DNA from: Amphibalanus amphitrite
Lineage: Eukaryota; Arthropoda; Thecostraca; Balanomorpha; Balanidae
Assembly: GCF_019059575.1 (NCBI RefSeq)
Contig: NW_024883018.1
Location: 62,001 to 126,000, forward strand
Direction: 5' to 3'
Length of the DNA stretch: 64,000 nucleotides
Below the pieces are notes generated by a model. It did not search any database and was not told where the DNA came from. It saw only the letters and a list, made by a program, of their open reading frames with translations. The position numbers and the translations under genes are program-made. Positions 5,001 through 34,800 of the stretch are shown here, in pieces. How positions within the stretch are numbered: the stretch's first letter is position 1; each line of letters begins with the position of its first letter.

Positions 5001-8000
5001 CTCCCTTCCTGTTGACTCCATGTATCAGCCCGGTGACGCGCAGTCAGTGATCCGCCTCGTTTATCTAATAATGCCCACAATGGGTCGGCGCCGCACGCCG
5101 GCCCATGTCTGCCGGATCGTGACTGACATGTCTCTCTCCTGAGTCGGTGTAGTGACTGTATTACCGTCCCTCCAGGTACCGCCGCATACCTACTGTATCA
5201 TACCGAAGACCCTCAACAAGGGCATGGTCGGATCCGACGTCTACATCTGCTATAAAAAGTCGATGCGACAACCGACGCGGGTCGTCTACAAGCCAGGTGC
5301 GCCGTCTGTTGTGTCGATTTTTCCTTTGATATATTTTTTGTTGACGATTTATTTCTGAATGTCATTCGGGAACGTAATGTTTTATCGTCTTTCTTGGAAC
5401 ACAGCAACCTTCATATGTTCTATCACCTCTTCCGTCGTACTATTTAATTCCGCACACGAGTGGTCTGTGCCTGCTCTGACCGCTGCCTCCGTCTCCCTCA
5501 GGTCTGCTGGGCCGGTTCCCGCTGGAGGACCGTCCCTACTTCCCGCTGCCCGAGTCAGTGCCCATGTTCTGCTTGCCCATGGGCGCCACAGTCGAATGCT
5601 GGCCCTCGCAGGCCGCCACGCCCAAACCCGTCTTCTCGACGTTCGTTTTTACCGTGGCAGACGGCGCAGAGAAGGTGAGAACGCCGCCGCCGGGCTGGAT
5701 TGGGCGAAATTGAGTTTCGACGAGTGGTGATTGCCTGTGCGGCTGACGGCTGTCTGCCGAGCGGCAGTTATTGGCTCGTTGTTTATTTGGTGGACTGGTC
5801 GGCTGTAGTTCAGGTCAGTCGGGCGTGCGGTGCTGGCGCCGATAATTTCGATGTGTCACGAAAATTTTGATTAAAATGATTGAACGAGTGAACCCTGAAC
5901 GCGGTGGTGGAATATTGAATGTCATTATGTCTCCATCCAAAGTTGAAACAGAAATAATGAGGCAGTTTTGCCAGTTCTTCACAATTCTAAATTTCGCCTA
6001 TGGTTTCCAAACAATTCAATTATTCCAGCTAGCCCGCGTTCCCAAGGCTCCGTGGCGGCATCGGTTTCGGATGGCACTTCCTGGTGTGTATCGAGTTATC
6101 ACCCACCCCGCGCGGTGTCGTGTACTGGCCGACGGCGCTCTCCGCTTACCGTGGGGCCTGTAGTAAAACCCGTCTGATAGAGGTGTGACCGATAGCCGCC
6201 CCTCGCCGGGGCGGGGCCGTCTGAGCGATATCAGCCGCGGGGGCAGCACTCGGGCCCGGTTCCACTCATCGTTCAACAACGTGCCGATAGATAATGGGAT
6301 GGTTATCGGAGGTATTTTACCACACGTTTTAGTGTAGTGTTGATGTTACGCTACGTCATGCAGTATGACATATTGATAACTCGTTGCCGGTGGAAACGGG
6401 ATGCTTGTGTTTCTATTACAGTTTGTGTCACCAGTGGCTTTTTTATTAATTTACCGATTCTATTGAGTAGAAGCTAGATTGTTTCGTTTTGCTTCAATGA
6501 TGGTGTCCGTGTCGCTCTGAATATCAACGGTTTTGTTTGTTCTCCAGCCATTTCCGTAAAGCGGTCGCCTGCAGTATGCCACTCTCGATGTGTGAGCCGC
6601 CTGTTCGGCTAGTCCACTCCCAGTGACTCTGTACCCCTCCGCGCCAGGTGTACGGCAGCTCCATCACGTTCTACGAGCGTTACCCGGACTCTGGTGGCAC
6701 CGTACCCCAGTGACTCTGTGGTGACTCTGTACCCCTCCGCGGCAGGTGTACGGCAGCTCCATCACGTTCTACGAGCGTTACCCGGACTCTCGTCTGACGG
6801 AGCAGCAGCGCCTCCAGTTGGGCATCGACACCCACCATCCCTCCGAGATCTCCGTCAACGCCAACAAGTCGATCGGCGTGCTGTCCCACTGGCCCTTCTT
6901 CGACACGTTCGAGAAGTTCCTGCAGTTTCTGCACCAGACGGCCATCTCGGGCAGGCCCACATCCGTGCCGCTCGAGAGGTGAGAAGAAGGGAGAGTGCGG
7001 ACCGTGGGGAGAGGGAGGGAGCGATGCAGCTGGGAGTGGGTGGGGAGAGGGGAGAGTGGAGTGGACAGAGGAGGAGACACCGAGGAGAGGGAAGACCGAA
7101 CACTCCATATGAACACTCACTTACACGGAAAACAGTTATTTGACACCAGCAATGTGTATGTAAATACGGTAAGGCCCTCTGTCGTCACCTCCCACCGTCT
7201 CGCCTCTCACCGTCTCACCTCCCACCGTCTCACCTCTCACCGTCTCACATACGCCCGCCTCTTCCCCGTCCAGGTACATCAGCCACATCCTGCTGGAGGT
7301 GCCGTTCCCCTCCGTGGCTCGGCCGTACGTGCACGTGCAGCTGGACGGCGGCGCGCCGATCGTGGTCGCCCAGCCGTACTTCTCTCCGCTGCCCCAGAGC
7401 GGCGCCAGCTTCTGTAAGCTGCTGAAGAACCTGGGCCCGGACAACAGTCTGCTGGTGCTGCTGTTCACGCTGACGGAGCAGAAGCTGCTGCTGCACAGCC
7501 TGCGGCCCGACGTACTCACCAGGGTGGCCGAGGCCGTCTCCATGGTAAGGGGGGGGTACCCCCTCAGAGGCCGTCTCCATGGTAAGGAAGGAGTACACTA
7601 AGAGGCTGTCTCCATGGTAAGGGGGTACCCTCAGAGGCCGTCTCCATGGTAATCAGATGGCTGGGGTTGTGATGGTCTATTCTGATCAGCGTGTGGAAAT
7701 TGGGGATGATGTTATTTTTAGCTAGTACCGAAGCATAGGATGGATCTACATTCTACCGGGTGATCTTTGTCGAGTCTCATGGGTTTATCGATGAATATTG
7801 CCCGTTCCGATTTAAGGGGCATCTCGTGGCGCTGCCTGATTCATATGTTTGTTTGTGTAGGACGGTCATCACTTACCGGTTTTATCAATTCGCAGATGAT
7901 CTTACCGTGCCTGTGGCAGTGTCCGTACATCCCGCTGTGTTCGCAGATGAAGTGTCCGTACATCCCGCTGTGTTGTGTTCGCAGATGATCTTCCCGTGCC

Positions 8001-11000
8001 TGTGGCAGTGTCCGTAGACCGTACATCCCGCTGTGTTCTGTTTGCAGATGATCTTCCCGTGCCTGTGGCCGTGATGTCCGTTCATCCCGTTGTGTTCTGT
8101 TTGCAGATGATCTTCCCGTGCCTGTGGCAGTGTCCGTACATCCCGTTGTGTTCTGTTTGCAGATGATCTATCTTCCCGTGCCTGTGGCAGTGTCCGTACA
8201 CCCCGCTGTGTTCTGTTCGCAGATGATCTTCCCGTGCCTGTGGCAGTGTCCGTACATCCCGCTGTGTCCGCTGGGTCTGGCCGACATCCTGTCTGCGCCG
8301 GTACCGTTTCTGGTCGGTCTCGACAGTCGGTATTTCGACATGTACGACCCGCCGCCGGAGGTCACCTGTGTCGACCTCGACACCAACACCATCTTCGTGT
8401 AAGTGCTCCTTACGGCGGCGCGTGCAAGATATTGTGCTTTGCTTTTACACCCGGCTCTTTCATCCCATGCATGTTGGGGCAAGCATTGGCTATCGTGTGG
8501 TGCAAGAAAATTGACCGGGATGCGTTTAGGGATGGTCGTAAAAAAAGATTCCTGTTAGTTTTTCACTTCATTCAGACCTGAGTCTAACCAAGGTTAACCA
8601 TCTCGCAGTTGGTTAATAATTTTCTCTACTTTTACCAGCTGTTTAGCTAATGCCGGTATGTATTTTTTACCTAGAGCTTGTTAAATGGTGACTTGATCTC
8701 GTGAGTGCAAGGTCCGTGGCTGTCCCGGTGCTCTGTGACCGCGCCTGACCCGTTCCTTACCGACCGTACGCTCACAGGGCGGAGGAGAAGCGGCACCTGG
8801 TCACCAAGCTGTTGCCGAAGAAGGCCTGCAAGCAGCTGCGCCATTCGCTAGAAGCCGTGTTCGACCGGCTCTACTCCATGTCCAGGAAAAGGGTGAGATA
8901 CGTGAAGTTTTATGATGGCTGAGTGGCTCAGTTGTGGCATCAGTTTTGTTTTGATATCAGGAATCTGGTCTCAGTTCGAGTTCTGGCCCGTCTGGGATTC
9001 ATATTCCAGTATATTTTCGTTAGCTGCTGATTCGTATCGTGCCGTTCTGACCTGGTATAACCCCCCCCCCCCGCGGTCAGGTGAAGGGAGGCAGTCCGGA
9101 GATGGACCTGCGGGTGCAGAGGATGGAACACCAGCTCGAGATCGAGATCCAGGAGGCATTCCTCAGGTGGGCTCCCGCACAAGGCGGCACTGTGACTGTA
9201 CAATGGTCGTTTCAAAACACACACAAAAAATCCAAGAAAGAGCCTTGGCATCTGCCTTCTATGTGCAACTCGTAATGGATATGCAGTTTTGAGACGGTCT
9301 TTACTACTTTTCCCATCACCTTAGCACCATCCTTTTCTGTCTGAGCTATGATCACCCGCCGTAACTGATATTCCCTCTTTATGGCAGGTTCATGGCCACG
9401 ATTCTGCGCGGCTACCAGGCGTACCTGAAGCCGATCAAGTCCAAGCCCACCACCGGCACCACCGACCCCAGCTCACTCTTCAACCTCGACGGTAACGGAC
9501 GGACGGGATGTGAACAATTACTCCCAGGGACTCGTTGATGACCCACTGGAAACAAAGTGGGCTGTGGGAAACTTCCGGGCAGCTTCCTCAAGTCACGGGA
9601 CAAGGCGTACCAGTAGTCTATAATTGGTAGTTCTAACCCCCGGCCGTTACCGTTGGCAGGTTTCCTCAAGTCTCGGGACAAGGCGTACCAGTAGTCTATA
9701 ATTGGTAGTTCTAACCCCCGGCCGTTACCGTTGGCAGGTTTCCTCAAGTCTCGGGACAAGGCGTACCAGCCGTTCTACCAGATGCTGACGACGACGCAGT
9801 CGTTCATCAGGTTTATCGAGGAGCGCAGCTTTGTCTCCGACAAGGACGCCTACCACGTCTTCTTTGACGAGTGTCTCGCCAAGGTGAGTGGCTGGCGCCC
9901 TCTCAAGGAGAAAGGCCACAAAGGTCCGCACATGCCTTTCTGCTGTACTTTGCGTGAGATCGGCATAGAACGTTGCTGTTTCAAATGCTTGAGCTCAGGT
10001 AGTTCATATTCATCCTCCGGATGTGATTTCCGACGTGTCTTTGTAATTGTTTTATTGAAAATGAAATTTTTGTCAATGTATATTACCTTTCTGCTGTTAT
10101 TTTTTTCTTTTATTGTGCGAATAATTTGTCATACATATATTCTGGTATCGCTCGGTCGCCGTATCTTTCAGACTGAACCTGTTAAATGCTACGCTGACCT
10201 GCCTCCCCTGGATGTTTTAGGACCTGGACTCTCCTGACTGCCGTCTTCTGGAGTCGGAGACCCCTCAGAGCGAGAGGACCGTGTTCGTACCGCCCCCGGA
10301 ACAGATGGAGGGCAGGCAGTTCGTCTACCACGTAAGTTCGTGTGCTTATAATCGGACATTGTGATCTGAATGGACTCTGATTTCACTATGTAGGCTTATT
10401 TCGACGAATGATGTAATTACCACGTTTGAACTTTGAAGTAAAGTAAAATGAGTGGGAAAACTTAGGTATTCCCCATCGACACATGGTAAACAAGATTCTA
10501 TGCGAATGTCGTTAACATGGTCAGCCATTTGTAACGGACCCCTTCCCAGTCTGTGGTCATTCGCCCAACCCAATCCTCTATCACACTGACCTGAACCCCT
10601 CCCCCTCGGCAGGAGTTTGGAGAGTTATTTCTTCCTAAACTCACTGACTCCCCCCCCCCCCTCCCTCGGCAGGAGTTTGGAGAGCTGCACCGGGAGCTGT
10701 TTTTAGCGCGCGCCACCTCGCTGCAGGCTCTGCCGCGGCCGCTGCCGGCCGTCGGCTCGGCCGCGCAGCTGGCCGGCCTGGCGGCCTCGGGCGCGGCGGC
10801 GCCCTCTCCGCTGGTGCGCCGCACCAAACACGAGGTCATGTCGGCCCGCAAACAGGCGCTCAAACAGGCCGAGACGCCGGCCCTGTGGGCCCGCTACCTG
10901 GTCGGAACGTGCTTCAGGTGAGCCGGACGAGAGGGCGGCGTGGGGACTGGAAGGGATGGCTGAGTGAGGAGAGAGGTGGGGTGCTGAGAGGCTGAGGCGT

Positions 11001-14000
11001 GAGGTTTTGGTGAATACAGTAAGCTCACTGGGAGTGTCGAAGTCGGTCTGAAGTGTTAAATAGACAAGCCTATCAGGGGCTGAACGCCTTGAAAGGTGGG
11101 CTAAGCCGGGGCCTATGATCTAAATGTCTCGAGCCTTGCCGCCGCGACTGAGCCGTTTGCAGGATGTGTACGAAGACTAACCTCCTCATGCCGTGTGTCT
11201 GTGCTGCAGCCTGTGGTTCGTCCACCTGCCCAGCTACGTGGAGGTGTGTGACAACAGCAAGGCAGCCATGGACGAGGCCTTCCAGATCATGGTGGTCATG
11301 CAGAAAATACTCAACCAGAGCGTCGACGAGGTGGGTCGGCATCAGACACAAACCTGGTATTTGGTAACCGGGGATACGGAGAGGAAAATAATCGGACTTT
11401 AATGGGCATGCTGAAGCGAGATTTTAAGCATGGCATTGTTGTAGGGCGATATGTCCTGAATATAACCGAGCTGTGTATACACCCGTTTTTCACACTTGCT
11501 ACCGTATGATAATACAGCTGTGTGCTGTGTGATGTGTGCTGTCGGATACTGACGCCGTTGTGTGCTCTGTGTTACACACAGGTGTGCTACCGTGTGATGA
11601 TGCAGCTGTGCGGCCAGCACCAGCTGCCTGTGCTGGCTGTCAAGGTGCTGTACAAGATGAAACAGCTGGGCATCCACCCGAACGCGCTCACCTACGGCTA
11701 CTACAACAAGGCGGTGCTGGAGTCGGAGTGGCCCACCGACACCATCGCCATGGGACGCCTGCTCTGGAGCAAACTCAGGTACGGGCGGGCATCTGGAGCA
11801 AACTCATATACGAGCGGGTATCTGGAGCAAACTCAGGTAGGAGCGGGCATCTGGAGCAAACTCAGATACGAGCGGGCATCTGGAGCAAACTCAGGTACGG
11901 GCGGTCCCTCATAGACAAACTCAGACGCTGCAGCTGCTAGGGAGACTGGTCCAGAGTGAATTCAGGTGTGCAGACTGCCGCCAGCTCTGAAGCAGAGCAA
12001 ATCCAGGTACGCATGGTCCTCTGGAACAAACTCAGTTACAGCTGCAATGCGATCGGAGAGCCTTACTGTCTCCCCCTCTATGTCACCGGCTGCGTCTGAC
12101 TGAGCCCCTCTCTATATCCCCACAGGAACGTGGTACTAGCGGCGGCCGAGTTCCGGGCCGGTCCGCGCCGCTCCGACAGAAAGGGCTCCTCGTCCCAGCT
12201 GGGTAGCGGCGACCCGGCCGCCTCCAGCCAGTCGCTCGGACACACCATGCTAGGTACGGTTCACGGGTACGGTATACGGCGGCGACCCGGCCGCCTCCAG
12301 CCAGTCGCTCGGACACACCATGCTAGGTACGGTTCACGGGTACGGTATACGGCGGCGACCCGGCCGCCTCCAGCCAGTCGCTCGGACACACCATGCTAGG
12401 TATGTGATACAGCGGCGACTTAGTCGCTGTGTCTACAGGGGGAATCTGCGCTTCGTGCTTTCCGCTCGACCCAGTCCTCTATAGTACCCCTGCCCCGTCT
12501 GTCTCTGATCATCTGCGCTTTTCTGTATCTGTCTCCAGAGGCAGACCGTGCGTCGTGCTCCTCGCTGGGCAGCCAGTCGCTCGGCACAGTCCTCTGTACC
12601 CTCACCTGCCACTGATTGTGACCCCTCTGTGTTCACAGAGGCTGACCGTGCGTCGTGCTCCTCGCTGGGCAGCAGCCGCTCGGCACAGTCCTCCCGGCCA
12701 GACGGACGAGCCGGTGAGTTAAGTTACCATCACAACTAGAGTGCGGTGGACTCCAGCGTAATGTGCTGTTTTATCGGTTTATTTGAAAATTGCTATGTGA
12801 TTCACGTGACACGTAGTCTTAATTTTTACGGAGCGAGCGAAGCGAGCGTAGTCTTTCCTTAGATTAACGGAAATTTCTGAGTATGAGCGGGCCGGCCGGC
12901 CGTGGTCACGCTTTTGCGAGGCTTATATCTCAGCAACCACTTGACCGATTTACATGCGGTAATTTTTGTGGGATAGCTTCATTCCTTCTACCAAGTATTG
13001 GACTATTCCCGATGCATGTGGGTGACCCCTTATGCACGTGCCACGTGCAAAACGAAGAGGTGTCCGTTTTGTAATTGTTGCAATATCTCGGTAACTACTT
13101 GGCCGATTGCGCTGAAAGTTGGCATGTAGGTAGGCACCCACTAGGCACTGCATATCCATGTGCCAGAGTTGGGGGCGCTGCTGCACGTGCGCACGTGCAG
13201 GGGTCGATTCCAGATCTCGAGAACGGCTGGACCGATGGCGCTCAAATTTGGCACATGGTTAGGGACCGGTTAGTAGGGTGCCGTGCAAAAGTCAGTTGGG
13301 CCCCATTTTGCACGTGCGCACGTGCAGGGTGCCGCTTCCAGATCTCGAGAACGGCTGGGCCGATTGTGCTCAAATTTGGCACATCGCTAGAGACCGGTTA
13401 GTAGGGTGCCGTGCACAAGTCAGTTGGAGGTACCCCCTCGCAATTTCGCACGTGCAAGGGCCACCCTCTCGCTCGCTCCGTTAGTCGCCCCAAAAGGCGT
13501 TATACTGGTACGTAACGAAAACAGTTTTTTCATTTGACCCGGTATCAGGCGGAGCCTCAGTGCCGAGTGATCCTTCCTCGCCCCTCCTGATCTGACCTCC
13601 CTCCCTCGTCTCCAGCGCGTCCGTCAGTGGCGCGCGCGCTCAACTTTGGCCGGCTGGACTTCTCCGAGTCGGACCGTTTCCGATCGCGGGTGGGCAGCAT
13701 CGTCAAGACGTCCGGATCACGGATACCCGGCTCGCCGCAAGTGACCAACTGTGAGTGGGGGAAGAGGGTGGCGGAGTGGGGAGGGCGACCGTGACACCAG
13801 CACAACTGTGGGACCGAGTGGGTAGGGATAGTGAAGCGTAGAATGCTACGGTCATTTTTAATTTTTACGGAAAAGGTTGATTGCTACTCTTTGTGTATTG
13901 CGATTTTTGTTGACAATTGTTTTTTTGTCATTACCGTTTCTTTGGCATTTTGAAGCTGACATCATATGTAAATATCATTCGTATCAAATGTCACACTGGA

Positions 14001-17000
14001 GACATTCTGACAACCTTGGCCTTATTGGCGTTATGGCCCCCTCAGACGACAGCTCAGCGGGCGTTCTGATGGTCTCCCCCCCCCCCAGATGACAGCTCTG
14101 TCGGCGTTCTGATGGTCTCCCCCCTCCTCAGACGACAGCTCTGCCGGCGTGCTGATGGTCTCCCCCCCCCCTCAGACGACAGCTCGGCCGGCGTTCTGAT
14201 GGTCTCCTGCCCTGAGGACGCGCCCTCCGCCGGCCCGCTGAGCGGCGGCAGCAGTGCGGGCGGCTCGGCGGCACCGGCCTCCGCCCGCCACCCCCTGGAC
14301 TCGCCACACCAGGAGGAGTTGCGGGCCAGACACCTGAGCTGCAGCGAGACGCCCGAGCACCAGCAGATCTCACTGCTACGGTGAGAGAGACGTCCACACC
14401 CTGATTTTCATCTGTGTATGCGGTTAGAGGCTAATGTTTAGCTGCTAGATATGTGGTCTATAATATTAGAGAGATGCTAAGAGAGGCTGGGGATACCACG
14501 ACGCTGATATGAGGTTTGACGCAAGGTCTCGAGGCTCAAGCTACTTGTTACGAATTCCAACGAACTGACTGTTTTGTCCTCCATTTTTCTCTGTGCGTTT
14601 TAGGTCGACCAGTTTCGCGGGCGATGACCAGATTCTGGCCTGTCTCCGTGAGATGGGCCACGACAGTCTGGACTCGGCCGTCGCTGCTGCTGCCGCCGGC
14701 GTCCCGGCTGGTGCTGGGGACCCCGGCGCTGCCCCCGGCCCCGGCCCCGGCGGGGGTGTATCGGCAGCCTCCACCCCTCCCCCGGCCGCTCCGCCCGCCG
14801 TCCGCTCTCGCTCAGCCAGTCAGGACATCAGTTTGGAGGAGCGCATCAACGAATACTACAGCGGCGAGGGCGACCGGCGGCGCAGCGACAGCCGGGAGCG
14901 CAGCGCTGACACGCGCAGTGTGGACAGTCTGGAGCTGCCCACCGACCCGCTGGGGGTGTGCGGCCTGCAGGCGCGCACCCCGGTCACAGAGAACGACCCG
15001 CTGGGGGCGCTGGGCCTGTCAGAGAGCCCGACCCGCACGCCGCCGGCGGCCGGCCGGCTGTCCGCCTCGCTCTCCCAGGCGTCCAGCTACCAGAGCAGAA
15101 AGGCCAGTCTTTTCAAGGTGAGTGAGGGCTAGAGATAGGCTTCGGACTAATGTGATGTGAATGGAGGGTGGTTGTCACAGGGGAGGCTGAGGCAGGCGGC
15201 GGACTTTCGAGTTTGTGTATGCCGAGTGAACGAATGATGGAAATGTGTTGTTAGAAAGTCACTTCTTTGAATAATATCCCATCTCATTCGCCCTCTCTAC
15301 TCGCCCCACATCTGACCCCCATCTGACCTGTCCATGTTGGTTCCCTTAGGCGGAGCCGTTCTCGGACGGGTTCGACCGGCCGGGCGACCAGGTCGAGAAG
15401 AACGGCAAACTGCCCAGCCCGGGCTCCGGGTCGGCGCTGGCCGGCTTCCGACTCCCGTTCAGGTACGGTGGCGCCGTGCTGTGGCAGGCTCGGCGCCCGG
15501 TGCGGCGCGGTGGGGACCGTGCATGTGAGCAGTTACAGCGGTAACGGATCGCTCGACTGCGGTTGGATAGAGATAGGCAGCGTGGGATGTCTAAGTGGCT
15601 GTGCCTGCAGTCTGATCATTCAGTGATAAATAAAGGGTCCTTCATCTAGTTAACTTGCTTTTTTGTTGGGATAATAACCCTAGATGTAAGTAACTTTACC
15701 CGTGATATATGGGTGGGCAGTTAACAAAAAGGCCTTTGATTTTATCGGGATAACAATTGCTCGGGTGGGTCGAACCCTTGTTTAAACTATCCTGGTTAAA
15801 CATGACTAACGCAAGAACCTATCGGAACGCTTCGTTCGTGGTTCATGGACTGACCGAATCTACTTGATAGGCTGTTGAAACGTTTCACTACGCTAGAACT
15901 GCTAGGCCTGCCTTGATCGTTGCCTGACACCGTTCGCTTAGCGCTCGACTGCTAGCCGTTACCGATTATTTCAGCATGCCGTTTTCCCTGATTTTGCCTA
16001 GCCCTGCATTGAGTGCGCCTGGCAGTCGTAGCACGTCAGCTCGTGTGTGGTAGATCCAGTACGAGCAGTGTGTCGCCACCCTGCATGCCCTGTTACAGCG
16101 CCAGTAGTAAGCTAGGCCTGGCCTCCAACCTGGCCTCGTACAACCTGCGCCGGGCAGAGCGGCGGTTCCGCCGGAGCATCGACACCATCACGCCGGAGCT
16201 CGACGGGCTCATGAAAACCTACAGGTGGGTGCCGAGTGGGCCAGTGGTGGCTCAGTGAGCGGCCGTAAGGAGCTGTTTTGGAGATATGTGAGCTATCGGA
16301 GCTGCAACGCTGTGGTGAGCAGCTGTGGAGCTATGAGAGCTGCTGTGGTGCGTCGGTGGTGGCCTGGAGCTATGGGAGCTGTTAAAGCTGTAGCGCTATG
16401 GTGAGCGGGTTTGCAGCTATGGTAGCTGCCGTGGTGAGTTGGTGGTGGTTTGGAGCTACGCAAAGCTTTGGTGGGCCGGCTCGCATTCGCAGTTTCGATG
16501 AACTGGGGCAGATCTGAGAGCAGTCAGCTTTGGTGAGCTGATAGATAGTCAAGGACCATCAGAGCTTGTGGAGAACTCTCGAGTTCTTGGTGAGCTTTTA
16601 GATAGTCACAACACTCTCTGGGACGAGAAGGTGATGGTGGATCTATGGAAGCTTCGATGACCTGGCACAGTCGACTCCCAAACATTGGACCAATGGACTG
16701 GATGACTGCGGGAACTGGTGAGCTGCTCTCGATCTGTCAAGCTGCCGTGGTTTGCTTACTCAGGTGCCAGTTCCTAAGGTAGACCCTCGGTGCGCCTGTG
16801 GAGTGTGGAGGCCATTGTGGAGACAGACCGGCACCCGGGGGCTGTCTACTTATGTTGCTAATTTGAAACACTGTTGCGTTGTTTATTTTGCTTTTAGATC
16901 TCTCGCAAGTATGCCATACTGGCAGAATGTTGTAGCCTGCGGCATGTAGCGTGCTTGAATTCCGCCGTATCAGCTGACGTTTCCTCGCGATGCATGACGC

Positions 17001-20000
17001 TTGTTATTCTTGTGTGATTGATTTCGAGGAATGCACCATTTCTTGCTCACTTCTTGCGCTGGAGGAAAATCGCCCCAAATTTCTAGCAATATTTTGCCAA
17101 GTTGACTCCTTTCCGTTTCTACATACCTTAGGAGAATGGTTCAATTAGTGGTGAGTTTTACGTCCTGATCTGAACGAACTTTTTAATATTATACTGTCCA
17201 TCCCCACTTATTTTGCCCCGATACAGTTCAATTAATTGCGTTATAATTTCAAATATCCTGTATTTTCAATGTGGCTTAGTGCTGACCGTCGTGTGACTTC
17301 CTGTGTGGGACTCAAGCTGACCTCTATTTGATCCCACCTGACCCGAGTATGACCTCTACCCCTCCCATAACCCACAGCCCTGCCAGTCTGAAGAACCACG
17401 AGCTGGTCAAGTCGGGGGTCAGCTCCATCCGCTCGGCAGCCACCTCGATGTACAAGAAGCTGGATGAGCTGAAGGAGGTCATGTCGAGCCAGAGTCCGGC
17501 GCTCACCAAAACCATGAGCCTGTGAGTTACCAACGAGGCGGAGAGCACGACTGAGTTGGTGTGAGTGTGAATGTGTGTGCGACTGTGTGCGTATGTGTGT
17601 CTGTGTGTAAATGTGCGTGTTTTCTAGTTAAATGTCCATATGACTGGGTTACGAAGGTGAAAAGTTGAAAGTTTTCCTCTGCCACCTTCACTGCTCGACC
17701 GCGGTCAGGCTGAACCTGGCTAAGTACTGCGCTTCCTGGCTGACTGGCTGATCACCTTGGTCTGAGCACTGCCGCCTGGCACGGGGAGGGGAAAAAGGGC
17801 TCTAAGTGACACTCGGGGCCCGGTGGATGGCGGGTGCCGGGCCACTACCAATGCACCGACTGCTGAGACCGACTGCGGGCGGGCGAGGCTCCCGGCCGTG
17901 AACGAATGCCGCACGTGGACAGACACTCTGATGGAATGAAGTGGTGTGCTTAGCGTGTGAATCGGTGTGCTTGTTTGGCTATGACGCATCCACACTTAAG
18001 GCAATAAGTCCATTTGGAATAACGAAGCTTCCATACATCTATCAGAATATGACGGTCCTTTGAGACTTTCGTATCGCAAAAACTACATCACAAGCAATTC
18101 CGCTACTAATTTCAATGTTTTATAAGTGTTTGGCATTGAGACACCTGCCCCCTCTGTAAATGGCTGGTTGGCCCCACTATCTCTGTGTACGCCCGGCTGC
18201 GCGCGGCTCTTATCTCACCTCAGTCCGTGCTGGTTCGCAGGCTGGGCACTAGTATGCCGTCGAATTTCCAGTACACTGCGTACAGGTACCCGTCGGCGAG
18301 CAGCCGCGCGCGCGGCGCCCCCGCATGGCTGTTTATCCCGCTCTGTCTGACCGACCGGCCGGTCCGGCGCTACCCGCATGTGTCCATGGCTGTCACTGGG
18401 GCACAGATTCGCACACTGACCTGCGCCGGGCGGCGGGGAAGATTGACAATGACAGGGGCTGATTTGTAGTGAGCTGATGCCTTCCCGAGTTGTGTTGTTA
18501 GAAGGGAAACATGTGAGACAGATGTTTTGGTGTCCTGATGATGAACTGTTTTGTGTGTGGCAAAACATGCGCTAAGGAACCCAGTTTGACAGGCTTTGTT
18601 TGATGTTTGTTTGCTTCGATGGCTTTTGTTTTGTTACTTCATCTTTCGGGTCTTATGATCAGTTTTACACAACACATACACCTGATTTGTGTAGCAGGTC
18701 CTTCATTTTATGACAACAGCTCCCTACCTCGAACAATTCCCTCTGCCGTCTGTGTCAAAGCGAAGAGATCTGTATTCGCAGGGGTTTGACTTACAGTGTT
18801 TGTTTAGTAATCGATGGCACAGTGATGTCTGTGCTGCATTGTTCTCTTCTATCCTTTCTCGTAGCTAATAGGCATGCCAGCATCAGCTATTTGGACTACC
18901 CTTTTCTCGCTTCTTTCCAATATAGTCTTGCTCGTCTTTTAATATCACCGAGTGTCGCACAATAACAGTAAGCATTACAATTTAGTTAGTACCCAAGTAT
19001 CTGTCGGCCTTTTCTCTTTAACTTGACATGACGGCTATTATTTCAATTTCCATTCAGGACAACTATTTACAGGCTTTGTCGGAAATATGAGCCGTTCGCA
19101 TGGACCTAATAAATTTTCAGTTTATCTACTAATCTGTTATTCGCCTACCGGCAGAGCAGCCTGTTTCTGTTCCGTGCGAAGTTAGTTGCATGCCGTCAGT
19201 TTTGTCCGTAGTTTTCACCTTACAGACATGTGTAACCCATCCCACTTCTGACACCAATGACTTGCTCGCCCACACCTGACCCCCTCCCCCGCCCGGACCA
19301 CACCGGCTCCTGGCGCCGTCACAACCCCCCCCCCCCCTCCATCAGGACCAGTATCGGCGAGGATGACGTGTTGGACGACATGCGTCACGCCGGCTCGGCA
19401 GAGGTGATCCCCGGCTTCTCCGAGGCCTGGTGTGACGGACTCTTCAACGACACCCACTCCAGCTCCGGTAGGTGGGACACCGCCAGCGAGAGAGAGCGAA
19501 CGGGTGGGCGGACGGACGTGTCTCTCTTTCTCAATCTGCTCTCGTCGATCCCTCTTCCTCCATTCATAACTTACGTCACGGTTACCGATTGGGTTCCTTA
19601 CGGAACTATTACACGAGTGTCCTGGAACCTCATCTGTATGTGTAATGAGACGTTATATGTATGTCTGAGCCCGCGTATAGCGGTACCATGACCCGCTTCC
19701 CCTCCCCTGTCCGCAGAGCTGGCGGTGCCGGCGCCGCTGCCGCCCGCGCTGCCCGCGCCGCTCGCCCCGGTGGCCGTGGAGCTGGCCCTCACCTCCTGCA
19801 GTCGCTGCTACAAGTGCCAGGCCACCGTGTACGACGAGGAAATCATGGCCGGCTGGTCGGCAGAGGAGAGCAACCTCAACACCAAGTGAGACAGACGCCC
19901 GGCTGAGTCGCAGATGATTAGTTTGTCATGAGATACAGCTGTGAGGCGAAGTACGAACGACGTGGCCTACGTGTGTAAAAATATTTGTAAAAATATTATG

Positions 20001-22449: not shown

Positions 22450-22515
22450 GACGACGTGAGTTCTGAGACAGCTGGGAGACGCGGGACGTGGGTTCTGAGA
22501 CAGCGGGGAGACGGT
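22450..22515 (+). repeat. Two-copy donor-like repeat just after the Crag stop codon
   Basis: gacgtgagttctgagacagc recurs 32 bp later as gacgtgggttctgagacagc. The GTGAGT at 22456, 6 nt after the stop, matches a strong donor, so a 3'UTR intron starting here is plausible. Confidence 0.55.
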
Positions 22516-24771: not shown

Positions 24772-27622
24772 TCAGTCGTGCACCGATATCATGATCTTGA
24801 TGCCCCGTCCGTCGAGCGCCGCCTGGAAGGCGCTCTCGCTCTCCTCCAGTGTGAACCGGTGGGTGACGAGGGGACCCAGCTGGACGCGTCCGGACGCCAC
24901 CAGGTCCAGGGCCAGAGGGTAGCTGTCGGCAGAGACGGGCAGGTCAGGGGCGAGAAACGGGAGGACCAGGGCCGTGGGGGCGCAGGCGGCTGGTGACTCA
25001 AGGGTAGAGAAGTAGGTATGATTGACTGGACAGAAACATGCTTCGTAAGTGCTCAACGTCTGTCTAGGATCTTGTTTATCCTCTGATAAGTTCTCTCCAC
25101 GATTTGCCTATTTCAAGTCATGAACTCATGCATGAGACCGTTAACGCTAGTGGAAAAGTCCCCTTTTACACTACCCCTGTGCACGATAACGCTCCCGTAT
25201 GCACCCTCTGAGACAGCACAGGGTGCCTCAGTCCTCAGATCCTTACTATCCACCCCGCCACTCACCAGTTGGCGTAGCGGAAGACGCCGTTGATGTCCAG
25301 CTCCTTGGCGGCTATCGTCACCATGGGCAGGTCCATGTCGGGCGGCCCGCGACCCACGAACGCCAGCTTCGCGCGCGGAGCTGCCGCCTGCGACACAATA
25401 TAGACAGGCAGTGAGAGAAGTTGGAGCAAGAGAGGGCAGAGGAAGCGACGTAGGGGCTCGTTTTACTTAGGTACCGCTGGCGTAGTTCGTGAGTCCTATC
25501 CTTGTTTTATGCCAACATTCAGCACACAACAACGGACAACCTCTCCATTGTATCTGTATCCCTGCACATCAAACACAAAAGCCATTCCAGCCTCCCCACT
25601 TCCCAGGTAGGTGACTCCTGCTGACCTGAAGCGCCATCCGCACGCTGGGTGCGGCGCCGCAGCATTCGAGGATGGCGGTCGGTGGCCCGCCAAGTGCTGC
25701 CACCACGCGGCCGGCCAGCTCCTCCTCACTAGCGCCATCTATAAGCACGGTGCCGTCCGCGCCCTGGCCGGTGGCAAACTCGAGTCGAGACGGCGAGATG
25801 TCTGTGGAAAAGACGGTGAGGTCAGCGGGGTCAGAGAGGTCAATAAGGGAAGGCGGGATCACTATCAAGGCCGGTCATTGAAGACCACTGAGGTCATCGA
25901 GGTCAAACAGAGGTTTAGCGAGGTTAACATGAGGCAGGTGGGGTCACTGAGGTTCACAAAAGGTTCGGCGAGGGTCGTGGGACATTTTATTACAAAATGA
26001 AAAATGCCCTTTACTCTCAGGTAGCCTGTCGTCCGACTTCTGTCCGTGACCAACTCCTCATAGTGAGTTATCTCCCTAAGACCCACTCTCCCTCCTTCTC
26101 TCCCCTCTCTCTTCCCTCTCACCAGTGACACAGACGCGGGCGGCGGCCAATGCGCGGGCCGTCAGCAGGCTGACCACTCCGATGGGTCCGGCGCCGCACA
26201 CCAATACACGGGACCCGAGCCCGACGCCGGCGCGCTGGCAGCCGTACACGGCCACCGTCAGCGGCTCCAGGAGGGCGCCCTCCTCCAGAGACACGTGGTC
26301 CGGCAGCCTGCAGACAGCGGGCGGTCAAAGAGGTCACTGCCGACGGCATGAGAGACCGTAGCGCACGGCAAGGGATATCACTGCCGACGGCACGGGAGAT
26401 CGATCACCGCAGATGGCACAGGAACTTCGGACGGTACGAGAGCTCACGGCCAGTCAAAGTAGCTGTAACGCTCTCTAAAAGCATCCTATTTGGATATTGG
26501 CATTGAGCTGGCGATGCCCCATGAGGCAGCCGCATTGAGACTGCGTCTCGGCCCGTCGCGTTGCTCTCACTTGTAGCAGAAGTCGGCCGGGTGTCGGTAC
26601 AGCCGGGTCAGCGTGCCGTCTACCGGCGGGGTGGCGCAGAACTGCACCGCCGGACACACGTTGTAGCGGCCCGCCTTACAGATGGGGCACAGCCGGCACG
26701 GTACGCCCGGCTCGATGGCCACGCGGTCCCCTGGCGCAGAGAAAGGGCAGAGGTTGGAGAGAGGTCACAGAGAGGTCAGAGGTCGCATAACGAAGGCAGC
26801 TGTCACAGAGAGGTCACATAGTGAGGGTAGAGTCAGAGCGAGGGTAGAGGTCAGACGGTATAGACAGGGGTCGCATTGAGAAAGCAGAGGTAACACCGCG
26901 AGGGTAGAGGTAGAGGTCAGATAACGAGGTCCCAGAGGTCACATAGGAAGAAAGGGGTCTCATAACGAGGCCAGGGTCACATAGGGATCACATACAGATG
27001 ACCGACGTCATACACGAGGAAGTCTCAGGAAGGCGGAAGTCCCAAAATGAAACTCAGCATCCGTATCTGCCTGTGGCCCCGCGCTAGCCCAGCAGTGCCG
27101 GCTGCCGATCCCACACCTACCGGGCCTCAGGTGGGTGACCTGGCTGCCGACTGTCTCCACCACGCCGGCCGCCTCGTGGCCCAGCACCATCGGCGACTGG
27201 ACGACGAATCGCGCGGTGCGGCCGCGGTGCCAGTAGTAGACGTCCGAGCCGCAGATGCCCACCTTGTGGATCCGGATCACCACGTCTGCAGAGCAAGGAG
27301 GGGAGATGGTTCGGGGAGGTCAGTAAGGTAGAGGGACGGAGGGCAGCAGGCGAACGTTTGGAGAGTCAAAGCAATTTGTTGACCGCGCGGATGGCCACGT
27401 GAGACGTTAGCTTCGGTCAGTTAGACCTGACAAAAAAGCAGGAAGGGTCATGAGATGCAGGAGTTTGGTGGGCCAAATTCTTAGTGCCAAGCTATGTCTG
27501 TGCGAAAATGCGCCTTTGTTCCTCTCACCCTGCGGTCCCGGCTCGGGCAGCTCCTTCTGCTCCAGCCGCAGGTCCCGGGCCTTGTGCAGCACCGCCGACA
27601 GGTTGTCCCGGCTCGGCGCCAT
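24772..27622 (-). CDS. Sodh: Sorbitol dehydrogenase (zinc-containing alcohol dehydrogenase family), 7 exons, 350 aa
   Basis: Exons, 5' to 3' on the minus strand: 27622-27529, 27285-27121, 26730-26571, 26307-26123, 25801-25626, 25387-25266, 24922-24772. The introns are GT-AG, and the phases join to 351 codons including the stop, close to the usual 350-357 aa. The enzyme oxidises sorbitol to fructose with NAD in the cytosol. Visible features: catalytic zinc ligands C43 in GICGSD and H68/E69 in LGHEA; a structural-zinc type cluster [21 protein letters not shown]; the [11 protein letters not shown] segment; Rossmann glycine motif [18 protein letters not shown]; and C-terminal PLVTHRF, GIKIMI. Start: MAPSRDNL, because the upstream in-frame ATG adds residues with no family counterpart. 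It lies head-to-tail behind the MKK7 gene and converges with Crag. The symbol follows insect usage. Confidence 0.95.
26740..27010. repeat. AGAGGTCA-rich intronic tandem repeat in sorbitol dehydrogenase
   Basis: The second intron holds irregular tandem copies of short units such as agaggtcacagagaggtcag, gagggtagaggtcag and cataacgaggtc. No gene is present. A milder version of the same composition occurs at 25820-25980. Confidence 0.7.
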
Positions 27623-28354: not shown

Positions 28355-28408
28355 TGACGTCACGAGCCGATCGACGATGACGTCACGGGTCGTTCGGCAG
28401 TGACGTCT
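28355..28408. promoter_or_regulatory. Cluster of three CRE/ATF-type motifs
   Basis: TGACGTCA at 28355-28362 and 28378-28385, and TGACGTCT at 28401-28408, all in a GC-rich stretch about 750 bp upstream of the sorbitol dehydrogenase start. Consensus CREB/ATF sites; function is inference. The stretch also overlaps the predicted MKK7 3'UTR. Confidence 0.45.
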
Positions 28409-28846: not shown

Positions 28847-31800
28847 CTACGGTTGGCTGAACATGGGCTGGTGCGAGTGGTGCGGAAACGGCCGCCGGTG
28901 CGGCTCCGGGGTGAAGAAGGCGCGCCGGTCCAGCGGCGGACGGCCAGACGGAGACCTACGGAGCACGACGGTGGAGAGTCACACCGCGGGATCTATCACC
29001 ATAACTCGGCCGAAACTACAGACAGGCAAACTTATCACATACAACGGCCGCTCATCATATCATGCGACACAAAATCACAACACAGAGCGATACGATAAAG
29101 CGCGCGGCGAGATAGTGAGACAGACGAGCATCCGAATGACACGACACTCGTTAACTCTGCGCACCCTAGACATCAACTCACGCCCGAACCATAACACGGC
29201 CAAATCCCCCTTCACCCCCCCCCCCGCCCACACACCTCGTTACGACCGCGGCGTGCACCGCCACCTACCCGTGTGACTGTGACGTTGAGGCATTTGGCAC
29301 AGACTGAGAGCCGCCACCGCGGCCCGCGTCCTGGCGTCGCATCATCAGCGGAGACGCCATCGAGTTGTACCTGAAACACGCGCGGTGTGGTTCGTATAGG
29401 GGCGGGGGCGAGCAGATGGGCCGGAGGGTCCAGTGGCCAGCGCCGGGCGGGGAGCGGGGCCCGGGTCAGGAGCCTGGGCTGCTGCGGGGCGGCGGCACTG
29501 CGGGGTACCGTAACCAGCCCGTGATGGGGACCAGAAGCTCAAAGCTCGAAGCTTAACAGTAAGCGTGTCTGGAAAGCAAAGCCACTTAACCACTTCAGTA
29601 ACTCAAATCACACCGTAGAAGCAAGCTAAAGATCGACAGATTCATTTAAGACCAGAACATATTTGCAATTCAATCACCAGATAAGTGACTTTCTCACAAT
29701 AAACAAAGCTAAGCTAAGCCTGCTGAGGCTACTGGCGAGGCTTTTTGACACCACCACCATCGCCTTTCCACCGACGGGCGCCGCCGTACGTACCTCGGCT
29801 GGCCATCCGCGCACGGATTCAGCCCCAAAAAGTTGTAAAGCCCCGAGCGTTCTGAGAAGCGTCCGCGCGGCGCCCACGACTCAGGCGTGAACCTGCGCGT
29901 GCACCGGGGTCAGCGGGTCAGACGGTGGGGGGAGGGGGCGGCCGGCCGGCACAGCCCACGGCGCGCCATCCGACACAATATCCGACAGAACGCCCAACGG
30001 CCACTGGTCATCAATGTGTGCCAAATGTTCAGTAATGTGCGCCAACTGTCTATATACAGGATATGTCCAGTGGAGACACTGATTTTAAATACACCACGAG
30101 CCGGTGTTTAACAACACATGTTTATTTTGTTCAAGTACTGTTTATTTGGGCCGCCCCGGATATTGTGTCGGAGTCGGTGCCCAGCTCTGGCGGCCGGCCG
30201 GCGGCGCCGTGCGACAGGCGTGGTGCGGGTGCCCACACAGACATACACACAGAAGGCGGGGGGGGGAGGGGGGAGTTTGTGCACCACCGCGACGCCCGAC
30301 CACCACCGTGGGCGTTGGGGAGGCGACTGGGAGGCGCTGGTGCCGCTCATGTAGCAACATCCTCCTCCGCTGCTATAGCATCGCCACTCCCATAGCTGCT
30401 CAGTGATGACATATTTGTTTGGAGCATATGGAAACGAGCTGATAGGTTTGTTAAATACGTAAGCGGTATGAAAGAGAAGATGGCATCAGATAATTTATCT
30501 AAATTTGTTTGAGAAGCTGCAGTGTTAATTATGGATGTTAGCAATACCGACTACTACACAGTTACACACTGAGGTTAGCATATCTTGGCTGGGAAGACAA
30601 AGAATTTCATATCAAATCAAAGGAAGAGTGTAACCCCAAGACTCGTCTGCAAAAGGCGTGACTTCAAATTTCTCTTTTTAAATTAATATAGACAAAAAGA
30701 GCTTAAGAGGACACTATGCTATTACACGAGCTTCCTGACTCGAGTACACCCGGTATTTCTACAACTCCTTTAACTTTGTTCCGTTGACGACGGGACACCC
30801 CACACCAAAACCATGCGCGGCTGACCCCGGACGGCAGACCTCAGACCCCCCACAGGACCAGTCCATCACCGCCGTAGTGACCAAAGCGAATATCACACCG
30901 TTTACCGAGTCCCCAAACCAAACCAAACCACTAGCACCACCCGTCACCACCGTCCGCGGTCCGGTCACCAGTGGTGCCCGCTGCACCACCGGTCACACTG
31001 TCTGTGCACGGGCTGTGGCCTCCGCTGACGAGCATGCACAATGACCATAGGACAGCAGACAGACATGCAGCCCCGACGACACCGGTCTGATTCCTGAGAA
31101 CGAGTCACGGCACACCCCACTCTGCCCCAACACGCGGAGATGAGAGAAAAGGGAACTGGCCGCCGAGCTGGAAACGTTCGGTGTCAAACTGTATGTAAAC
31201 CCGACACAACCAGACACATCCAGATACTCTCCCAATCATTCAGAAGAGACACAAAACGGTCTGTCCCAGTCGCATCTCACAGTCCCACAATCACACACAC
31301 ACACACGTCACACGGCCACACATCCCCGGTCCGTGACGGTCTGTCACGGTCCGCCACAGTCCGTCACAATCTGTCACACGCGGCAGGCGTTACCGGGGGG
31401 CGGCGGCGTCGCCGTCAGCTGGGACAGCGGCAGCAGCAACACAGCCACAGAGAGCTCAGCGACCACTTGAGCGGCCGGCGGCTGCCAGCGGCGGGCGGAC
31501 GCGGTCAGCACACACAGGCGGTCAGCGAACAGCCTCACAGCCCGCTGACCGGTCAGCACAGCCCGCTGACCGGTCAACGTCGGTCCGAGACAACCGAGGA
31601 CCGACAGAAATGGCACAGGACACGACACGACTTGACGAGACACAGCTAGGTCAGAGGGCACAGACCCAGGCGCGGTCGACTGGTACAGATAAAGATAGAC
31701 AAACTCCTGTACCGCTGACGGGACTGGTCGGCCGGTTCACCTCTCTGCTGCGGGCCCTGTCAGGAGAAGCGGTCAGGAGATACGAATCAGCAGGTAAACT

Positions 31801-34800
31801 GAACACAATGTGGTCGGGAATGGGATGTTAGCAATGACATTTAGCTCGCAACTGAGTGACGAACGGAATCAGCTGCATACCCTGTTGCTGAACATGGGCA
31901 CACGAGTCAGAGTCGTTAGATTAGGGTCAGGCATGCCCTGTTGTAACACTGCGCCATCACAAACCGAGGTTGATTATTATGTTAGAGCGGCCGTCAAACA
32001 AATACTACGGACGATCCCGTACATATGTTACTGCGATGGATACCAGAGCACTCAGTACCGCCTGGCAGCCGGTGTGTTCTGGACACGGAGACACACCCAT
32101 GAACAGCCCATGGACGACCACCTGGGCGGCGGACGCAGTGTATCCAAAACACTGGCTATCCTTAATACGGGGTCCCGTCGCAGCGTAATTCGACTTAATA
32201 ATCAAAGTACGGAAACCAAAGGTTCTCCAAGACTGGTGACAGCCATCCCTGGCTAAGGGTTGTGTCCCCCCTCTCAAGCCCAAACCGATCCCACTAGTTC
32301 TCCCAAACCCCGACTGAACTCCCCGGCTATGGTTGCCCCCTACCCCCTCCCCCAACCCACACACACACCCACCCATAACTGACCTCTTTAGCTCCTGATG
32401 GTCCCCTTAGTCCCACACCCCTGACTGACCTCTCCGGCTCGGGGTTGTCCCCCCCCCCCCTTAGTCCCGCACACCGGTGACTGACCTCTCCGGCTCCGGG
32501 TTGCCCCTCCCTGGACGTCCCGTCCCGTCCCGGCCCGACCTGACCTCGCCGGCTCTGGATGCGTCCCTGGCCCCCCACATCTGTACGTTGACTGACCTCT
32601 CCGGCTCCGGGTTGCCCATTCCCCTGGTCCCCGCACCCGCTGACTGACCTCTCCGGCTCGGGGTTGCCCATTCCCCTAGCTCCCCGCACCCGTGACTGAC
32701 CTCTCCGGCTCGGGGTTGCGTCTCCGGCTGTGGAAGGGGTGGTGGGGAGAGGCGGGCGGCGGCGTTCGTCTCCTCGTTGTCGGCGTTTTGATACCGGACG
32801 TCTGTGCCTGCACATCTGAGGACAGGGAGGGGTGCTGTCAGACAGACAGGGAGCGTCTCAGAGACGGTGAGGGGTCGCAACAGAACAGCAGCGGCAGGAC
32901 AACACGCAAAGGGGACAGATTTAGCAGCACGAGAAGTCGAGCACCTCTTTGAGCGCCCATCCCTGAACCAAAAGCAGTTACTGAACCAGGAGCTGACACT
33001 GAACCAGGAGCTGCCAACCACCTCTGAACCAGGAGCTGGAGCTGAACCAGGAGCTGACACTATACCAAGAGGTGACACCCACCTCTGAACCAGGAGGTAA
33101 CACTGACCCAGAAGGTGACACCCACCTCTGAACCAGGAACAGTCACTGAACCAGGAGCTGACAGCTGCCACCCACCTCTGAACCAGGAGCAGTCACTGAA
33201 CCAGGGAATGAAACACACCTCTGAATCAGGAGCTGACAGCGTCACACCCACCTCTGAACCAGGAGCTGACGTCGACCCGCATCCGTTCCGATTTCTTTAT
33301 GAACTCGTGGTCCAGCAGCCGCTTGTACTTGGGTCTCTGTTTGTAGTCTTTGGTGAGGCAGTCTTTGACGAAGCTGCGCAGCTCGGGGCTGAAGCCGCCG
33401 CCGTCCGGCAGCAGAGGCGCGTCGTACTTGAGCACCTGGCGGTCAGGAGAATAACTGATGGTACCGCAGGCGGCCACAAACGGAACGGTGGCGCAGGAGG
33501 CACAGAGGGAGAGCAGGGAACAACAGCCTCTCGGCAGGCCAACGTGACCTCAACTCACGCTAGATCTCAACGCATTTGTGTAATTTCGATGCAAGGGCGT
33601 GCATAAAACTTCATACGAATGTGTTGAAAAACCTAGTCTACAAAAAAGTAACCTTGACCTTCACTAAGAACATATTTTTCCCAATTGTAAGTGACTCGCA
33701 CGACACAATTAAAAGTGTCCTCACTTCACCTACATGGCAGAGTCACCGTTTCTGCCCATCGAATAAAGCGCCTACGTCCCACTCCCCCTAAGACCCAGCC
33801 TGACAGCGCGCCTCCGCCGTACCCTGGTGAGCGCCTCGAACTCTGACGTGCAGTCGGCGTAGGGCAGCACGCCGGTGGCCAGCTCCACCAGGGTGATGCC
33901 CAGCGACCAGACGTCGGCGCGGATGTCGTAGTCGGGCCGGTCCGGGTTGGGCGGCTCGATCCGCTCCGGCTGCGGGAGGCAGAGGGCGTCAGACGGGCAG
34001 AGGTGAGGGGTCAGAGGGACAGGGACAAAGGCGGAGGGGCGCGGCAGGACGTCAGAAGGACAGCGGAGCAGAGCTGAGAGGTCAGAGGGACTAGGGCAGG
34101 GGTAGTCAGGGGTAGGACATGTCATGGGCCAGATTAACTTGGATGTCTAAGATAAAATGTTGCAATTAAGAGGTCACTGTAAAGTCGAGCACTGTGAGGA
34201 AGAGAGGACAAGCGGTGAAAGCTTGAATGCCATGTTCTCGGAACTTACAGTCAATTATTTGAACAGATAAACGAAACTGCCAACCATAACCGATACTATA
34301 GTCACAACGATTACTGATTACCGTACAGATGTACCGATTACCATCCTTTAAAACCGTTCCTCTCCGTAGCTGTGCTGTGCACCGCTACACCTGCACACCC
34401 GCTCAGCGGCCGACCTCCGCTGCCACCAGTCTACTCACGGCCATGTAGGCTGCCGAGCCGGCCGTGCGCGTCTTGGCCTTGGAGTCGACCAGCCGGCCCG
34501 AGATGCCGAAGTCGCACATCTTCACCTGCCCCATCTCGTCCAGCAGGATGTTGGAGGGCTTGACGTCGCGGTGGATGACGCCGTGCTGGTCCTTCAGGTA
34601 GTGTAGCGCCTTCACCGTCTGTGGACAGGGAGGGTGCAGCGGTTAGCGGGGAGCACGGGGAGCCGCATATGAAGAAGAAGGCAGTAGGGAGCGAGAGGAA
34701 GCCCGAAAGTTTGACGCACGTAGCAAAACAAAATGAAGTTGGCGGTCGGGAAGATACTTTTGTTTGCAGACGTGGAACGGGTAGCGGGGCGCGGAGAGGC

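Follow-up and report, generated by a model that had tools for sequence, protein, structure and literature searches.

Tandem arrays across splice junctions of barnacle genes resemble the mirages of lancelets

Why do short tandem duplications lie so often across exon-intron junctions? The question is raised by the window, the whole 64,000-nt stretch of Amphibalanus amphitrite DNA analysed here, for which a preliminary description had listed such duplications at 13 junctions of two genes, Crag and MKK7. Twelve of these junctions indeed carry tandem copies that include the splice site, and the thirteenth, at 22456, lies just past the Crag stop codon. We searched for arrays with Tandem Repeats Finder, a gapless self-alignment scan and direct reading of the sequence; the scan misses the array at the Crag exon 16 acceptor and scores those of exons 18 and 32 as intronic.

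Arrays in the two alleles of Crag

The spliced coding sequence of the Crag/DENND4-like gene is 5,202 nt long, with an open frame to the stop codon (22447-22449), and encodes 1,733 amino acids; a Pfam scan of the first 1,046 residues finds uDENN, DENN and dDENN domains. The Crag copy on contig C71 differs at 163 of the 5,202 coding positions and encodes an identical protein, which, together with many other loci paired on two contigs, supports the conclusion that the two copies are alleles. The gene, its putative mirages (arrays of the kind known from lancelets, discussed below) and the neighbouring repeats are as follows.

2064..22449, + strand: Crag/DENND4-like gene, 33 coding exons and 32 introns
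6623..6790, + strand: putative mirage, exon 6 acceptor (junction 6745/6746); 2 copies at a spacing of 98 bp; 1 in the other allele
7528..7652, + strand: putative mirage, exon 7 donor (7544/7545); about 4 copies of about 32 bp; other allele about 3
7889..8267, + strand: putative mirage, exon 8 acceptor (8222/8223); about 6 copies of about 56 bp; other allele about 7, with more regular spacing
9578..9769, + strand: putative mirage, exon 12 acceptor (9737/9738); 78-bp unit, 3 copies, the outer one partial; other allele 2
10596..10684, + strand: putative mirage, exon 14 acceptor (10672/10673); 2 copies at a spacing of 60 bp; at least 3 in the other allele
11497..11605, + strand: decayed putative mirage copy upstream of the exon 16 acceptor (11581/11582); clearer in the other allele
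11762..11904, + strand: putative mirage, exon 16 donor (11778/11779); 29-bp unit, about 5 copies, with a further decayed one at 11979-12039
12205..12402, + strand: putative mirage, exon 17 donor (12253/12254); 73-bp unit, 2.7 copies
12427..12673, + strand: putative mirage, exon 18 acceptor (12638/12639); copy at 12536, decayed copy at 12427
14036..14207, + strand: putative mirage, exon 20 acceptor (14175/14176); 4 copies of about 43 bp; other allele 1
21730..21913, + strand: putative mirage, exon 32 acceptor (21879/21880); 3 copies; other allele 1
22453..22513, + strand: tandem repeat 3' of the Crag stop codon, containing GTGAGT; a candidate donor of a 3'UTR intron only
3755..3807, no strand: intron-only tandem repeat (counter-example)
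7184..7248, no strand: intron-only tandem repeat close to the exon 7 acceptor but not spanning it (counter-example)
16279..16458, no strand: intron-only tandem repeat with an 86-bp unit (counter-example)

The decayed array at the exon 16 acceptor (11582) was absent from the preliminary list. In the other allele, the exon 16 donor has a decayed copy only, the exon 17 donor has a 92-bp unit in three copies plus two decayed ones, and no array was detected at the exon 18 acceptor. Spacings range from about 29 to 100 bp, as first described; copy numbers, originally put at 2 to 7, run from 2 to about 9 when decayed copies are counted. An own-intron score of 14 or more was reached at 11 of 64 Crag junction probes, against 10 of 33,761 probe comparisons with introns of other genes.

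By junction probes, 11 of 64 Crag junctions bear an array in the window allele and 8 of 64 in the other. Of the 11 junctions affected in the window, seven also bear arrays in the C71 allele, and these differ in copy number, unit or spacing; the remaining four have none there, and C71 has one array of its own. Over both alleles, nine acceptors and three donors are affected, with homologous arrays at seven of these 12 junctions and single-allele arrays at five.

This allelic pattern bears on the suspicion that the copies are false, having been created in assembly where a conserved exon meets a diverged allelic intron. The animal is very polymorphic, the assembly contains its two alleles, and the arrays lie where these align poorly, as such an error would have it. 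However, merged alleles would yield two copies, whereas some arrays have 4-9, a number of them with distal decay, and the two alleles carry homologous yet different arrays. In addition, a comparable lancelet case was confirmed through other sequence data, according to PMC3902484. An artefact is thus very unlikely.

The excess at junctions within and beyond Crag

Arrays of the same kind occur at the MKK7 donors 33252 and 32701, confirming the initial assignment. The identity of MKK7 is based on PDB matches and a Pkinase domain. The relevant features on the minus strand are:

32956..33268, - strand: putative mirage, MKK7 exon donor (exon end 33252); about 4 diverged copies
32236..32720, - strand: putative mirage, next MKK7 exon donor (exon end 32701); the real site and about 8 copies
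24782..27622, - strand: alcohol-dehydrogenase-like gene, 7 exons assigned, outer ends placed by eye

The array at 32701 has a first spacing of 52 bp and decayed distal copies. In the alcohol-dehydrogenase-like gene, none of 12 junction probes was positive in the window allele and two of 12 were in the other. The two genes first named prove too few, since further junction arrays lie in unrelated genes: a MIOS-like gene (C60), a gene on C380 and a myosin (C472). The MIOS-like gene has three junction copies on C60 and two on its allele C148, with the older decoy common to both. No junction array was found in C140 (28 junctions) or in one myosin (14 junctions). Separately, the cuticle-protein family PF00379, mainly an arthropod family, gave 150 matches among 705 candidates, those listed all being above the cut-off, which supports an arthropod origin of the DNA.

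To count arrays against expectation, tolerated duplications were placed evenly. In the window allele of Crag, 8 of 14 arrays lie across a junction versus 2.12 expected (p 1.8e-4). Outside the window, with automatic gene models, the count is 7 of 10 intron-touching arrays versus 1.15 expected (p 1.8e-5), two of the seven reaching just some 6 nt into the exon and another, on C100, being a doubtful GC-rich repeat; under a rule of 10-nt exon overlap it is 3 of 10 versus 0.89 (p 0.05). The gene finder was trained on Crag alone, where it recovered 63 of 64 junctions with 3 false. Exons on C60 and C380 that had been added by hand after the arrays were seen were later found by the automatic finder as well; an earlier model set lacking these and an added MKK7 exon put the outside count at 3 of 9 (p 0.011), and at 0 of 9 under the 10-base rule. 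The outside count omits C220 (retroelement-like) and, in its stricter version, also C100; because chains with a score under 60 or fewer than 3 exons were left out, C20, C180, C260, C300 and C340 have no model. Pooled, 16 of 25 arrays are at junctions versus 3.24 expected (p 9e-10).

Local repeats were also found at 566 of 7,961 intron-interior probes (7.1%), a share little lower than the 26 of 254 junction probes. The interior count includes mirage copies and other repeats, and it was not used as a control since mirage copies are themselves intronic. Crag is an outlier, and 11 of its 12 arrays cluster in exons 6-20 (p 6e-4, for a range picked after the arrays were seen). Duplications fall on junctions more often than chance, as the preliminary description had proposed in setting them against intron interiors; the support is strong in Crag and less certain outside the window.

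Such an excess could arise by persistence alone, if duplication were even and exon-containing arrays stayed recognisable longer since constraint acts on one copy's exonic half. The exonic halves of decoys are in fact better preserved than their intronic halves. An effect of about twofold would be expected, but with junction arrays detectable twice as long the pooled count is still 16 of 25 versus 5.54 (p 3e-6), and a factor of 3 leaves p 1.7e-4, or p 0.04 for Crag alone. We therefore regard persistence as quite an unlikely full account.

Drift of the decoy copies and origin of the arrays

The copies besides the real site, or decoys, might be competing splice-site arrays, as had been suggested at the outset, and be maintained by selection for alternative or robust splicing. 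AG or GT is retained in 48 of 51 decoys, versus 41.5 expected from whole-copy identity, and we initially read this as selection; the reading was dropped after the exonic and intronic parts were separated. Decoys are 92-94% identical to the real copy in the exonic part and 85-89% in the intronic part, the pattern expected with only the real exon and its dinucleotide constrained. Their AG/GT bases are kept at 110 of 115 positions (95.7%), against 1,478 of 1,589 exonic positions in the same copies, so that the dinucleotides are not clearly conserved beyond what neutral drift from a constrained reference would give. Nor did frame or site strength give a sign of selection: the distance is a multiple of 3 in 15 of 48 decoys, and the decoy is at least as strong as the real site in 28 of 48 (p 0.48). 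At first the units had seemed centred on the junction; this idea was likewise dropped, since the exonic share varies widely among arrays. Moreover, at 5 of the 12 affected Crag junctions just one of the two alleles has the array, and RT-PCR of lancelet mirages suggested regular splicing (PMC3087553). A splicing role is unsupported because the decoys drift like neutral copies and show no frame preference; functional arrays are highly improbable, and what we see looks like harmless genomic wear.

By copy identity alone, the other allele's exon 17 donor array declines with distance (0.99, 0.87, 0.86, 0.76) and the MKK7 32701 donor array from 0.98 down to 0.74; at exon 8 the other allele's array has no such gradient.

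We consider it likely that the arrays are mirages, namely minisatellites seeded by tandem duplication of a 30-100 bp segment straddling a splice junction and then turning over. A local duplication of this kind would be tolerated because the copy attached to the exon body stays the working site while the other copies become intron. The exon-attached copy, presumably the working one, gives an open frame, a result covering some of the alternative choices of copy. The array would then grow, shrink and be homogenised, probably through unequal exchange or slippage, so that alleles come to differ, and its copies would decay into ordinary intron. What carries this reading is the anatomy of the arrays, the differences between alleles, decoy drift that fits neutrality and the junction excess. 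Its weakest step is the source of the excess, which may lie in more frequent duplication at or within exon edges, wholly exonic duplications being purged by selection.

Two other mechanisms were considered. In the first, repair or meiotic exchange between diverged alleles would be anchored in exons and misalign where homology ends. The genome here is highly polymorphic, and decoys agree with the other allele at 26 informative sites and with their own allele at 28, nearly even numbers; however, that ratio is also expected from old arrays with shared polymorphism, and introns with mirages show no extra substitution divergence (identity 0.865 versus 0.855 in the others, p 0.79). Recombination at the edge of homology is possible but unlikely. 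In the second, slippage would occur at C-rich polypyrimidine tracts or other breakage-prone splice-site sequence, an idea already raised in the preliminary description. The nine acceptors to three donors in Crag point this way, as, slightly, does the share of poly-C acceptors affected (4 of 6, versus 5 of 26 among the rest; p 0.038, uncorrected for the several tests made), but donors lack such a tract and are hit in Crag, MKK7, C380 and C472 too, making this origin rather improbable.

Mirages, related systems and meaning

Mirages are little-studied minisatellites across splice junctions, reported in the Adh, globin, troponin C and PGBD5 genes of lancelets, which are highly polymorphic animals; somatic length instability was reported for the Adh3 mirage. 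Although no named system had at first been recognised, our arrays share most testable mirage features. The unit spans the exon-intron boundary (Crag in both alleles, the MKK7 donors), is tens of bp long and is present in two to several copies; both 5' and 3' boundaries are duplicated in Crag; haplotypes differ in copy number (Crag, and the MIOS-like gene in C60 versus C148); and most copies retain AG/GT. Outer copies are more diverged in some arrays but not in all. Unlike the cephalochordate cases, ours are in an arthropod, affect 11 of 64 junctions of one gene, come with a measured excess over intron interiors and are known from assembled sequence alone.

Introns reportedly also arise by internal gene duplication or from tandem arrays, as Zhuo 2007 and Gao and Lynch 2009 are said to describe. 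There too a segment bearing a splice site is duplicated, but no intron gain is seen here, the arrays enlarging existing introns. Human genes in segmental duplications have internal tandem repeats at exon-intron boundaries, likewise minisatellites with units of about 30 bp. PMC2812944 links them to gene duplicates of recent origin and to introns that are new or altered, in contrast to the present case of two alleles of one conserved gene whose protein is unchanged.

As far as our literature search reached, mirages so named were confined to a handful of lancelet genes, and their presence in an arthropod, with a measured junction excess, is new. Extreme diversity is reported for a barnacle in PMC8270832. 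Tentatively, exon edges might be a hotspot of short tandem duplication in very polymorphic animals, reached independently in arthropods and lancelets, with successive waves of duplication and decay at junctions as a main source of new exon-adjacent intron sequence. For annotators, one array can present several equally strong wrong splice sites. With several arthropod genes, a measured excess and allelic pairs to compare, one can now test whether exon edges attract a mutational process, and by what route introns grow and turn over.

Genes and junction arrays in the window

The window is C1521:62001-126000 (C numbers denote contigs of the assembly, which comprises 807.6 Mb in 2,644 contigs), and the features considered here are as follows.

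2064-22449, plus strand: Crag/DENND4 gene, 33 exons, found by reading the sequence
In the window, minus strand: alcohol-dehydrogenase-like gene, with an ADH_N match
In the window, minus strand: MKK7, with MKK7 as its top PDB matches and a Pkinase match
48787-51129, minus strand: long open frame (780 aa), judged helicase-like by eye, with the nucleotide-binding motif GPPGTGKT
59748-60086: large minisatellite with a 9/27-bp unit, outside the named genes
62916-63936: large minisatellite with a 20-bp unit and higher-order periods, outside the named genes

The 33 exons at 2064-22449 are joined into an open frame of 5,202 nt (1,733 aa), and the gene was identified as Crag/DENND4 by the uDENN, DENN and dDENN domains within residues 1-1,046, the scanned portion. 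The arrays that the preliminary description had named at junctions of Crag and MKK7 were recovered by Tandem Repeats Finder and by gapless self-alignment. Its "probable" donor at 22456 lies inside a repeat immediately 3' of the Crag stop codon and is a candidate donor.

To score junctions, probes taking 25 bases from the exon and 15 from the intron were compared with their own introns (up to 350 bp), and scores of at least 14 were taken as positive. Eleven of the 64 Crag junctions in the window allele were positive, versus 10 of 33,761 comparisons in the foreign-intron control. Over all 12 gene sets, which include both alleles of three genes and one hand-added C60 exon, 26 of 254 probes were positive, one of them in a retroelement-like stretch (C220). 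The array at the MKK7 donor at 32701 was shown apart from this list, because the next exon was then unknown. At the Crag exon 30 acceptor (window ~20987-21030), a possible very old decayed junction copy scored 11.6 versus 9.0 for the best control, which is under the threshold used and does not exceed some controls of the 12-gene-set comparison.

Two Crag alleles and genes elsewhere

A search with one array matched a second contig, C71, which is collinear with window ~1.5-43.5 kb, with gaps, and carries all 33 Crag exons at 92-100% identity. Of the 5,202 positions of the two equally long coding sequences, 163 differ, none of them changing an amino acid. The pair thus behaves as strongly constrained alleles, and the agreement supports both gene models. 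Silent diversity between these two alleles of one assembly is very high. Many further loci occur twice, on separate contigs, and both haplotypes therefore seem to be retained in the assembly.

Arrays at the exon 7, 16 and 17 donors and the exon 8, 12, 14 and 16 acceptors are common to both alleles, those at the exon 6, 18, 20 and 32 acceptors are confined to the window, and that at the exon 10 acceptor is confined to C71. Between alleles, the shared arrays vary in unit, spacing or number of copies. At the exon 16 donor, the window carries about five copies of 29 bp and C71 one decayed copy; at the exon 17 donor, the unit is 73 bp in the window and 92 bp in C71, where two decayed copies follow. 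Separately, Crag intron 18 of the window allele holds a dispersed element (12831-13509) that itself contains a 128-bp duplication; this intron is 902 bp long, against 219 bp in C71, where the element is absent; a relative occurs further along C71 (~717018-717879).

Outside the window, the scan covered ten stretches of 20 kb taken at fixed positions, together with four containing myosin genes, which came from a Pfam search and were picked regardless of repeats; gene models were produced by a simple finder trained on Crag. Clear arrays were seen at an acceptor of a MIOS-like gene on C60 (3 copies; zinc_ribbon_16 match) and at one donor and one acceptor of a gene on C380, and a myosin gene on C472 has a clear case of a decayed copy at a donor. 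In C148, the allele of C60, the older decoy (a copy other than the exon-attached one) is present and the younger copy is absent. The C380 donor region is identical to C547 over 611 bp (C380:115090-115700, C547:444061-444671) and the acceptor region is 98% identical, so neither array differs in copy number between alleles. The 100% identity of this pair compares with ~72-97% in aligned parts of Crag introns. Myosin genes at C1366:116359-119022 and C1447:139102-141640 give three adjacent matches to one profile stretch (~376-436), resembling mutually exclusive exons.

Excess of arrays at junctions

As the null, duplications of the observed unit length were placed uniformly over positions preserving the coding sequence, within an intron or across a junction. 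Counting the two alleles of a gene, which are non-independent, arrays lay at junctions in 8 of 14 cases in the Crag window allele (2.12 expected, p = 1.8e-4; up to 2.6e-3 across the thresholds tried) and in 5 of 6 in C71 (1.04 expected, p = 5.6e-4). Both arrays of MKK7 and the dehydrogenase gene in the window were at junctions (2/2, 0.13 expected, p = 0.0045); their other alleles had one array each in the same scan, 0 crossing a junction. Among ten arrays in the automatic models outside the window, seven were at junctions (1.15 expected, p = 1.8e-5); leaving out C100, the count was 6 of 9 (0.98 expected). Since copies with a constrained partner may decay more slowly, the junction weight was doubled, and the pooled excess still gave p = 3e-6. 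Requiring an overlap of 10 bases instead of 6 lowered the outside count to 3/10 (p = 0.05), and an earlier outside model set without the exons that were at first added by hand gave 3/9 (p = 0.011), or 0/9 under the 10-base rule. A cruder count found some local repeat at 566 of 7,961 intron-interior probes, a figure that includes mirage copies and other repeats. The earlier proposal that duplications favor junctions is thus strongly borne out in Crag, and outside Crag the excess is likely but less secure.

Decoys, known systems and origin

The exon-attached copy was treated as the presumed working site, because choosing it gives the open frame. AG or GT is kept in 48 of the 51 junction-including decoys; these 48 do not differ from the real sites in predicted strength (mean 5.70 vs 6.03, p = 0.48), and 15 lie at a distance that is a multiple of three. 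Identity of decoys to the real copy is 92-94% at exonic, 95.7% at dinucleotide and 85-89% at intronic positions, as would be seen if the copies drift without constraint while selection preserves the exon and the dinucleotide of the reference copy. Neither these positions nor strength or frame supports the suggested splicing role, and among the 51 decoys the strength, dinucleotide and per-position comparisons give no sign of selection against them.

The preliminary description knew of no named system; the arrays are most likely mirages, a kind described in lancelets, minisatellites whose unit straddles an exon-intron junction. According to the lancelet report (PMC3087553), units are 10-160 bp, either intron boundary may be duplicated, one globin gene has 6 vs 3 units in two haplotypes, inner units are homogenised and outer units are not, and RT-PCR suggested regular splicing. 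A second report adds PGBD5, with repeats reported as confirmed by additional sequence data, and troponin C (PMC3902484), and human exon-intron boundary repeats are described in another (PMC2812944). We found no report of mirages outside lancelets in the literature searched, where coverage of subscription papers was thin and some queries were narrow.

Crag mirages are concentrated in exons 6-20, a range picked post hoc (11 of 12 sites of both alleles combined, among 30 of 64 junctions, p = 6e-4). Mirage introns resemble other introns in substitution identity (0.865 vs 0.855, p = 0.79) and have a lower aligned fraction of length (0.67 vs 0.84, p = 0.007). Poly-C acceptors are hit somewhat more (4/6 vs 5/26 others, p = 0.038, uncorrected), and informative decoy sites resemble the other allele in 26 cases vs 28 for their own. 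None of these results, on clustering, divergence, poly-C or allele-likeness, fixes the cause of the excess. We favor a duplication rate raised at or within exons, with duplications wholly inside exons presumably purged by selection; recombination at edges of homology would rank next after a raised exon rate.

Taken together, the junction arrays are a real feature of several genes, unevenly spread, and represent a known kind now in a new phylum, in an arthropod. They are most likely a neutral by-product, and the link of mirages to exon edges is worth testing.
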